From: Echinarachnius parma
Taxonomy: Eukaryota > Echinodermata > Echinoidea > Clypeasteroida > Echinarachniidae
Length of the DNA: 64,000 nt
Assembly (NCBI GenBank): GCA_037951105.1
Contig: JBAMJV010002054.1
Span: forward strand, 62,001-126,000
Direction: 5' to 3'
Made by a program: the position numbers and the translations under genes. Shown in pieces: positions 9,501 to 55,717 of this stretch. Position 1 is the first letter of the stretch, and every line of letters starts with the position of its first letter. Under the pieces are notes generated by a model. That model was not told the DNA's origin, made no database searches, and saw only the letters and a list, made by a program, of their open reading frames with translations.

Positions 9501-10211
9501 AGGCCACTAAAAATGTCAAACTTTATTTGCCCTTCTTGGCAACCAAGTTGAACAGATTTTAAAAGTTTGTCTTTGTTTTGGGCCACCCAATTCTGGTTTT
9601 AGGCCAGCAAAAATTTGATACCTATCGATTTCACTTAACCCATCAGGGAAAAAAAAAATCATATTTAGCGTAACAAGGCTTATGTTTAAACACTTATTAG
9701 TTTTTCAATGTAATGTAAGTTTGTTGCTATAACGGTAAACTGCTATTTTTCCTTGAAAATTAAAAGTAATTGTAGTTAATTGTATATACAAACAAAGTTT
9801 CTCAAACCCAACAGAGATTTCTAAACCGAACAAAAACGCAAACAATAAACTTGAATTTTGACCTCAATTAACTTTCATTCAGATGATAATGCAATCATAA
9901 TTGTATACCACAAGTGTCTGCCGACAAATGTGTGCAAGTTAAAAATATAGAATTATTATCATTATTAAACTCTTGATCAAATTAGCGCCAGGGCAAATGT
10001 TGCGTCACCACCATTTTGAGCAGTTGACTAATGGAATCTTGTTTGTTTTTCTCTTCCCTCTTCAACTCTTCTCATGGACCCTCTCACTCACCCCTACAGC
10101 GATGATAGCAAGGATCGAGGACTGTTCCTCAGATATCTCATTCAGGACCGGTCGGAGGGAGCCATGTCATACTACGAGTTCATTCAACATCTGCAGAAAG
10201 ATATCAAATGA
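555..10211 (+). CDS. SEC24B: Protein transport protein Sec24, A/B type (C-terminal 501 residues)
   Basis: Cargo-binding subunit of the COPII coat, which pairs with Sec23 at ER exit sites. Eleven exons join in frame: 555-656, 1272-1376, 2735-2858, 3510-3668, 4114-4287, 5770-5880, 6510-6688, 7651-7788, 8244-8441, 9163-9266 and 10100-10211, stop TGA at 10209. All have AG acceptors and GT donors. The 501 residues cover the end of the trunk domain (LGPALQAALKLM, GGRVTIFQ), the beta-sandwich (RYLTRKIGFEAVMRIRCTKG, then FHGNFFVRSTDLLSLPNI), the helical domain (ERRIRVHTMCLPIA, LGDARDALVNVC) and the gelsolin-like domain (GAYLMDVGDIMYLFIGK), ending in YYEFIQHLQKDIK. These match vertebrate SEC24A/B; SEC24C/D differ clearly in the trunk and sandwich. 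The gene is 5'-truncated by the window edge. Many of its exons have decayed partial copies in the adjoining introns. Confidence 0.95.
890..1195 (+). pseudogene. Two decayed tandem copies of SEC24 exon 1272-1376
   Basis: The exon at 1272-1376 (encoding SATGGRVTIFQ...) is preceded by two copies starting at 890 and 1065. Both keep a pyrimidine tract with CACAG and begin SATGGRVT. The first then loses part of the middle, and the second gains bases that shift the frame. Both continue past the place where the intact copy has its GTAAGT donor, reading GGAAGAAAAATTGATTCC instead. The copies therefore have acceptors but no donor. The repeat units are about 175 and 207 bp and include about 70 bp of intron. 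Confidence 0.85.
1531..2310. repeat. Dispersed GGCCCG/GGGCCA repeat, two arms flanking AT-rich DNA
   Basis: At 1531-1632 and again at 2205-2310 there are fragments built around GGCCCG, GGGCCACTAAAA and GGGCCAGTAAAA. The second arm ends in TTAATTTCGAGCATTG, the reverse complement of the way the first begins (CTCGAAATTAGCA). A 34-base A-run follows the first arm. The pair forms a loose inverted repeat of about 780 bp. Related fragments occur at least eight more times in the window, so this is a dispersed family. Its class is unknown. Confidence 0.6.
2872..3345. repeat. Degenerate (GAT)n microsatellite array in SEC24 intron
   Basis: The stretch is a trinucleotide tract of GAT/TGA units with interruptions. 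It contains an internal duplication: the block around GAGCAGTATGAGTATATAAT at about 3012 recurs at about 3270. All three frames are open over long stretches as homopolymeric peptides, so the long open frames here are artefacts of the repeat. It lies just after the donor at 2858. Confidence 0.95.
3680..3912. repeat. (GAT)n microsatellite, about 230 bp, nearly pure
   Basis: An almost uninterrupted run of more than 70 GAT units starts 11 bases after the donor of exon 3510-3668. Every open frame across it encodes a single repeated residue (Asp, Met or Ser/His on the other strand), so none is a gene. Its nearness to a splice donor could make it relevant to splicing of a highly length-variable allele, but that is inference. 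Confidence 0.97.
4420..4656 (+). pseudogene. Two partial copies of the 3' end of SEC24 exon 4114-4287
   Basis: The last about 70 bases of exon 4114-4287 (GATAATCTCAACAGC through CACCAGCAGTAAAG and the GTAT donor) recur at about 4427-4494 and 4587-4655. Each copy keeps a donor-like GTATGG or GTAGGA but has no acceptor, because the 5' half of the exon is missing. Flanking intron (CATGCCATGAAAATTC) is also copied. The unit is about 160 to 200 bp. Confidence 0.85.
4675..5480 (-). pseudogene. Non-LTR retrotransposon endonuclease fragment
   Basis: Reading the minus strand from 5443 to 4766 gives one frame with a single in-frame stop at 5165-5167. The first part has SETWFEKTVPSMYN and GVIYKAPNTGSDEF. 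The second has LLGDFNFDLL and TDISDHFPIFEI. These are the conserved blocks of the APE-type endonuclease domain found at the N-terminus of the second ORF in CR1/Jockey/RTE-like elements. The reverse transcriptase part is absent. A TTAA-type inverted-repeat end (AAAGGGATCTAGTAACTTTG) lies next to it at 4676. The piece sits between the duplicated exon fragments at 4420-4656 and 5583-5680. Confidence 0.85.
5583..5690 (+). pseudogene. Decayed copy of the 5' part of SEC24 exon 5770-5880
   Basis: The sequence GTGAGAGGCGTATCAGGGTG and the following bases through CTGACCGAT match the first about 60 bases of exon 5770-5880. The acceptor has become AAG instead of CAGG, and after GACCGAT the copy diverges and has no donor. 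It therefore looks unspliceable. The true exon begins about 187 bp downstream. Confidence 0.8.
6155..6456. mobile_element. TA-flanked inverted-repeat element with an internal hairpin
   Basis: The element begins TACAGTCAAACCTGTGTTTA and ends with the inverse (AAGACAGGTTTGACTGTA), giving terminal inverted repeats of about 25 bp next to TA. That is the pattern of Tc1/mariner-type MITEs. Inside, 6182-6236 pairs with 6241-6295 to form a hairpin with arms of about 55 bp, perhaps a second nested insertion. A second family member is at about 14051-14233, and a degraded one at about 2560-2702. Confidence 0.75.
6791..7095. mobile_element. Inverted-repeat MITE in SEC24 intron
   Basis: The left end reads GTGTTTCACAAAGATCCTAA followed by GTTGAACT and CTAAGTTGGAC. 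The right end is the inverse, ending GGATCTTTGTGAAACACCCC. The terminal repeats are about 40 bp around an AT-rich, non-coding 220 bp centre. A G-run directly precedes the left end. I see no transposase. Confidence 0.75.
7868..8106 (+). pseudogene. Two partial copies of the 3' half of SEC24 exon 7651-7788
   Basis: The end of exon 7651-7788 (from ATGCCCAACCTCTACACCATG to GATGAT) is repeated at about 7870-7942 and 8025-8100. The first copy ends GATGATTTAAGTT and the second GATGATGTCAATC, so both donors are damaged. Neither copy has an acceptor. Confidence 0.8.
8536..8743 (+). pseudogene. Copy of the 3' part of SEC24 exon 8244-8441, a possible cassette exon
   Basis: Bases 8536-8590 resemble the GDIMYLFIGKNVS part of exon 8244-8441. 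Bases 8673-8743 copy its last 72 bases with a one-base deletion. Unusually, this last copy has an acceptor-like TCTCTTCTTTAG at 8661-8672 and a good donor CAG|GTGAGG after 8743. If spliced in, the 71-nt exon would shift the frame. Confidence 0.7.
9335..9625. repeat. Dispersed GGGCCA-family repeat fragment
   Basis: The fragment has blocks such as GGCCTGATACCAAATTTGG, GGTGGCCCGTAGC and GGGCCACCCAATTCTGG that resemble the family at 1531-2310. It lies in the last SEC24 intron and has no coding features. Confidence 0.5.

Positions 10212-55717: not shown

Follow-up and report, generated by a model that had tools for sequence, protein, structure and literature searches.

The window analysed here, that is, the whole stretch of 64,000 nucleotides (C2053:62001–126000), belongs to a 1.2-Gb genome represented by 14,790 contigs. 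It carries a SEC24A/B-type gene, recognized by matches to Sec24A/B chains and Pfam domains, a MARCH gene with a RINGv domain (best chain 2d8s), a family-10 fucosyltransferase gene and, as the fourth gene, MRPS24. The name FUT11, given to the fucosyltransferase in the initial annotation, is provisional, and the gene is called FUT11-like below. Exon edges in the window were taken from homology and splice-site reading rather than from transcripts, and the term "echo" is used for a decayed partial copy of an exon lying beside that exon. The exons and arrays are as follows:

555–656, plus strand: SEC24 exon S1; weak echo at 745–825 (67% identity, score 138)
1272–1376, plus strand: SEC24 exon S2; upstream echoes at 922–966 and 1065–1169 (207-bp tandem unit)
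4114–4287, plus strand: SEC24 exon S5 (beta-sandwich); echoes of the 3' part at 4419–4493 and 4568–4654
5770–5880, plus strand: SEC24 exon S6; echo of the 5' part upstream, at 5585–5674
7651–7788, plus strand: SEC24 exon S8; echoes of the 3' part at 7847–7942 and 8002–8099
8244–8441, plus strand: SEC24 exon S9 (gelsolin domain); echoes at 8662–8743 (3' part) and 8133–8194 (internal part)
10100–10211, plus strand: last coding exon of the SEC24A/B-type gene, placed by Sec24A/B chain matches and a splice site; stop codon TGA at 10209–10211
10238–11262, plus strand: SEC24 array; 11 degenerate echo units of 86–97 bp, derived from the 3' end of that exon together with stop codon and UTR
35561–35753, plus strand: MARCH penultimate exon; two downstream echoes at about 35835–35932 and about 36009–36106 (3' part with donor and intron)
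36512–36687, plus strand: MARCH last coding exon, stop codon TAG at 36685–36687; echo of the 5' part upstream, at 36275–36390
36676–38006, plus strand: MARCH 3' UTR array; units of about 83 bp and higher-order units of 201 bp, beginning 10–12 bases ahead of the stop codon's end
52381–52774, minus strand: FUT11-like array; two echo units of about 192–202 bp, downstream of the stop codon
52775–52934, minus strand: FUT11-like last coding exon, stop codon at 52775–52777
53918–54180, minus strand: FUT11-like exon 2; echo of the 3' end downstream, at 53723–53779 (93% identity)
59137–59420, plus strand: MRPS24 last coding exon, without an echo and thus a negative case

The initial annotation held that in SEC24, MARCH and FUT11-like the end of the last coding exon, stop codon included, is repeated directly downstream, an observation which was confirmed in part. 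It holds for SEC24, in which the repeat begins at 10140 within the last exon and the unit takes in the final 72 coding bases, the stop codon TGA and about 26 bases of 3' UTR; together with the coding unit the array comprises 12 units of 86–98 bp (one coding, 11 echoes) and ends at about 11262. Units 1 and 6 are 92% identical, 2 and 7 95%, and 8 and 10 94%, and this pairing indicates block duplication inside the array. The coding unit shows 72–84% identity to the other units, among which it clusters weakly with 9 and 11. The stop triplet is not constant among the units, whose mismatch rates at codon positions 1, 2 and 3 are 0.20, 0.17 and 0.34, respectively. The claim also holds for FUT11-like, where about 84 coding bases including the stop codon (52775–52858) recur twice, at 52583 and 52381, with a spacing of 192–202 bases.

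In MARCH the array (36676–38006) is real, but the coding end of the exon is not repeated: the unit is essentially 3' UTR, because only 10–12 bases, stop codon included, are in register, and the final 120 coding bases lack a downstream copy (score 77, the best of 60 random contig pieces reaching 95). The repeat units of the three genes differ in sequence, as had been stated. A possible stray SEC24 unit near 38048 in the MARCH region was rejected, its score of 106 being at chance level when compared with the 112 reached by the top match elsewhere on the contig. Within the MARCH array a short dispersed repeat was found (37142–37203 and 38429–38482), with at least 39 further places in the genome. 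A second haplotype of this array was not present among the 40 that were scored of 735 first-look candidates, and the matches elsewhere were to the dispersed repeat only.

Copies of the same kind, overlooked in the initial annotation, are present at internal exons of all three genes. Self-comparison of the window and multi-frame protein matches placed them in the introns flanking SEC24 exons S1, S2, S5, S6, S8 and S9; the MARCH penultimate exon (two echoes), the 5' part of the MARCH last exon and FUT exon 2 are likewise copied nearby. Every exon was compared by alignment with its own 1.5-kb flanks and with about 105 foreign ones, the sample consisting of 18 exons from the window and 25 chaperonin exons on other contigs, and hence of few genes. 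With z above 6, a copy was recorded at 12 of the 18 window exons, 14 of the 25 chaperonin exons (one with z 6.0) and 55 of 250 random non-exonic segments. A direct copy scoring at least 200 within 1.5 kb was found at 10/18 window and 13/25 chaperonin exons, together 23/43, while none of the 43 had an inverted copy at this score and distance. At score 200, non-exonic controls from the contig, taken outside the three arrays, gave 46 direct and 12 inverted copies among 239, and intron controls in the chaperonin loci gave eight and two among 100, the latter with 700-base flanks and an undercount near locus ends. In the window no echo reached score 200 at S1, S3, S4, S7, S10, the MARCH RING exon, FUT exon 1 or MRPS24. 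Roughly one exon in two of this sample has decayed copies of one of its own ends, and the stop-codon arrays look like one case of this.

The echoes follow the side of the exon on which they lie. Among 25 echoes, 21 contain the own-side edge only, none the opposite edge only, one both edges and three neither, the chaperonin edges being the ends of profile matches and not in every case exon ends; the corresponding numbers for non-exonic controls are 18, 5, 27 and 7. This side rule fits head-to-tail duplication across the edge; scattered insertions would show no preference for a side. In several pairs the alignment exceeds the spacing, so that they are strictly tandem, and in the SEC24, MARCH and FUT11-like arrays, at S2, S8 and the MARCH penultimate exon, and in an ARF array described below, the repeats are contiguous with a period equal to the unit length. 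Against a simple reading count the three echoes with neither edge, the weak S1 echo, which lies downstream yet contains the 5' part of the exon, and the spacing of some pairs.

Echoes are 67–95% identical to their own exons, and 22 of 29 contain a frame-shifting gap. Mismatches between echo and exon fall on codon positions 1, 2 and 3 at 152/961, 115/961 and 274/962 sites, the third position being about twice as often affected. The echoes therefore look neutral, with the exon serving as a half-frozen reference: positions 1 and 2 show the decay of the echo alone, and at position 3 synonymous exon change comes on top of it. Functional tandem exon duplication, giving alternative exons, does not appear to describe these copies, in which frameshifts prevail (22/29), positions 1 and 2 both decay and both edges occur in only 1/25. 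Neither does retrocopying, as the copies include adjoining intron, e.g. 35667–35973 versus 35835–36140 with the exon end at 35753, a detail followed within the window only.

Differences in echo number were sought between contigs. Contigs C5141, C9424 and C1908 were taken as second haplotypes by identity and shared gene order rather than by phasing. The SEC24 exons of C5141 are 97–100% identical to those of the window, and a further Arf-family gene is present on both contigs. Echo number is unequal at 3 of 11 SEC24 exons: S1 has two echoes on C5141, including a near-whole copy of the exon, versus one in the window; S2 has one versus two; and for S5 none was found on C5141 versus two in the window. 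Because global contig alignment separated the S5 region poorly, the comparison relied on BLAST blocks and on searches with the exons. For S10 a weak match clears the BLAST cut-off on C5141 only, and alignment recovers it in the window too. The SEC24 stop array does not differ in number, ten echoes being detected on each contig. In one global alignment, 14 insertions of at least 30 bases distinguish the two contigs, five of which looked tandem, two of these in the region of a (TGA)n microsatellite. The latter occupies 3677–3912 and starts at most about 10 bases from the 5' splice site at exon S4 of SEC24.

On C4226 (129201–130400) an ARF exon has five upstream echoes with a period of about 180 bp, four of them at 95–96% identity and the most distant lying where the examined stretch ends. 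Its counterpart on C9424 (54501–55500) has three in the stretch examined, and this exon-intron minisatellite is probably polymorphic. The window also contains an LTR-type retroelement (16488–22572), with end repeats at 16488–17201 and 21858–22572 that are 99.4% identical and a gag-like minus-strand ORF with a zinc knuckle. It is probably a young insertion, since C5141 appears to be without it, the alignment jumping from 16496 to 22572.

Gene ends outside the window were examined by stop-centred alignment, a test not identical to that used for exons, in a small sample (n=8). A stop-straddling copy with about 28 coding bases was found at the ARF gene on C4226, which scored 228 against a null maximum of 103 (110 versus 101 by coding bases alone), and one with 75 coding bases at an aldehyde dehydrogenase gene, present on C1785 and C1908, with scores of 365 and 343 against null maxima of 104 and 113 (249 and 231 by coding bases alone). 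By the same alignment none was present at the chaperonins on C5279 and C1820, the ARF genes on C9998 and C3376 or the aldehyde dehydrogenases on C4163 and C12972/C10704; one further gene end (C1287), with an inverted score of 163, was dropped from the set. Stop-straddling copies thus occur at 2/8 gene ends outside the window and at 3/4 inside it, where MRPS24 has none. The claim that three of four genes follow the rule consequently stands by stop-centred alignment; judged by coding bases alone at score 200, it falls to two of four (SEC24 and FUT11-like), the number outside being 1/8. The window figures carry a selection effect, the finding having been chosen for its arrays. At the chaperonins, 12 own-edge echoes were counted at the 50 edges of 25 match segments.

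Minisatellite arrays are common on this contig, 31 of them covering 7.5% of 164 kb, and two further arrays of about ten units lie on C2053 outside the window. These are L011 (2359–3654; 10.6 x 122 bp) and L010 (1854–3374; 9.8 x 156 bp). Pfam scans place fragments of a DNA polymerase beta-type gene near both, with doubtful summed scores inside the arrays; HHH_8 follows one array at about 0.7 kb, and L010 lies between two thumb-domain exons.

The copies, with their edge geometry, their neutral-looking decay, their difference in number between contigs and their presence in unrelated genes, are very probably the product of a genome-wide, frequent tandem duplication of segments of about 80–250 bp that is filtered by selection, the three stop-codon arrays being three cases of it. 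Segments of this size would be duplicated in tandem often and at many places in the genome. A duplication across an exon edge or a stop codon would be harmless, as one intact exon is kept and the partial copy may decay in the intron. Where the segment holds the 3' edge of an exon (the splice donor, or the stop codon and 3' UTR) the first copy would remain functional and the echoes would lie downstream; where it holds the acceptor side the last copy would be the functional one, with echoes upstream. Some tandem pairs could then grow into minisatellite arrays via multi-unit unequal exchange or slippage, and old events would stay recognizable at exons because selection freezes the exon copy. That the molecular step is slippage or unequal exchange is our inference, as is the selective filtering.

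As to the interpretation offered in the initial annotation, which was supported in part, the local origin of each array is borne out, and copies in unrelated genes on other contigs speak for the genome-wide mutational process that had been suggested. A process specific to stop codons, or selection that favours arrays in the 3' UTR (e.g. as back-up stop codons or UTR regulators), is by comparison very improbable. It would accommodate the three window gene ends, two with large arrays, as well as the ARF and ALDH copies; however, internal match edges carry echoes at a rate (12/50) similar to that of gene ends outside the window (2/8, a small sample), which deprives both the rule tied to stop codons and the selective explanation of support, the MARCH unit has just 10–12 coding bases, the stop triplet varies among SEC24 units, and large arrays are present elsewhere on the contig. 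This small sample thus points to arrays being no commoner at stop codons than elsewhere. That duplication is instead biased towards exons by transcription, splicing, chromatin or GC, making them genuine hot spots instead of simply better at keeping a record, is a tentative possibility. By our arithmetic on the hit rates, the exons (23/43) exceed the contig controls (46/239) about 3.6-fold and the intron controls (8/100, undercounted near locus ends) about ninefold, while in a simulation with assumed mutation settings exon edges had a recording, or anchor, advantage of only 1.73x. Control hits, on the other hand, climb threefold with GC, from 6 through 10 and 12 to 18 of 60 per quartile, and the exons average 53% GC; the top quartile (18/60) combined with the 1.73x advantage predicts about 46%, near the observed 53%. 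If control segments that match foreign flanks are dropped, 29/239 remain, 11/60 in the top quartile, the prediction becomes about 30% and a roughly twofold gap opens. GC and the anchor effect account for part of the exon excess, and a residue may remain. It is rather doubtful that tandem duplication truly concentrates on coding exons once the recording and GC effects are allowed for, with introns and 3' UTRs continually fed by decaying exon copies; were this so, pseudo-exons, decoy splice sites and gene-end arrays would be supplied at a rate undescribed for other animals in the literature surveyed.

Repair-mediated local duplications akin to "doublets" are known in vertebrates (Pace et al. 2009, PMC2671141), and the first copy might likewise arise through repair that captures DNA from nearby (synthesis-dependent strand annealing) in place of slippage or unequal exchange. 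The unmatched spacer in several pairs (36267/36504, 8369/8672, 5582/5767) would suit such capture, and local copies made in human by the process described in that paper can reach 619 bp. We nevertheless consider it unlikely, since the side rule (21 to 0) and alignments longer than the spacing fit head-to-tail duplication, and capture could take either edge and either orientation, yet inverted exon copies number 0/43. An artefact of collapsed or mis-joined haplotypes is scarcely credible. Parts of the assembly do seem to contain both haplotypes; however, echoes that are 67–95% identical to their exons and frameshifted in 22/29 cases are unlike the 97–100% identity of SEC24 exons between contigs, and the same ten SEC24-array echoes were detected on two separate contigs.

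In the titles and abstract openings of the literature surveyed, in which few subscription journals are represented, no exon echoes at such density and no class of stop-codon arrays are described. Like the minisatellites and internal tandem repeats in genes treated by De Grassi and Ciccarelli (2009, PMC2812944), the arrays have head-to-tail units, block-wise growth and differences in copy number between contigs; unlike them, the repeats here are partial exon copies beside 23/43 exons sampled, in ordinary conserved genes. The duplications of PMC2671141 are similar in being short local copies with exon and UTR parts that are ongoing within a species. In that paper 4/824 donors were partial exon/intron sequences, compared with 23/43 exons and direct copies only in this study, although methods and denominators differ and the figures are not comparable as rates. 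Intron gain through tandem duplication of exon segments (PMC4974935, PMC2891723) shares with the present case a tandem duplication across coding DNA, but here the echoes decay in introns and 3' UTRs and no new intron was shown. The instability of the sea urchin immune genes Sp185/333 (SpTrf) also involves repeats and local change in copy number (PMC5103432, PMC10887614); that is one immune family, whereas ordinary conserved genes are concerned here.

If the density found here holds genome-wide, conserved exons are fixed recorders of a local duplication that normally fades in neutral DNA. The echoes would then give direct measurements of the rate, the size range and the age of short tandem duplications, and would reveal introns and 3' UTRs being filled with fragments of their own genes. 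For annotation, exon-like matches in introns can be decayed copies.

Two other features of the window are a self-complementary palindrome of 428 bp, 86% matched, at 62336–62763, and a pair of MITE-like elements (27128–27685 and 32736–33297) that are 75% identical and possess terminal inverted repeats of about 30 bp.
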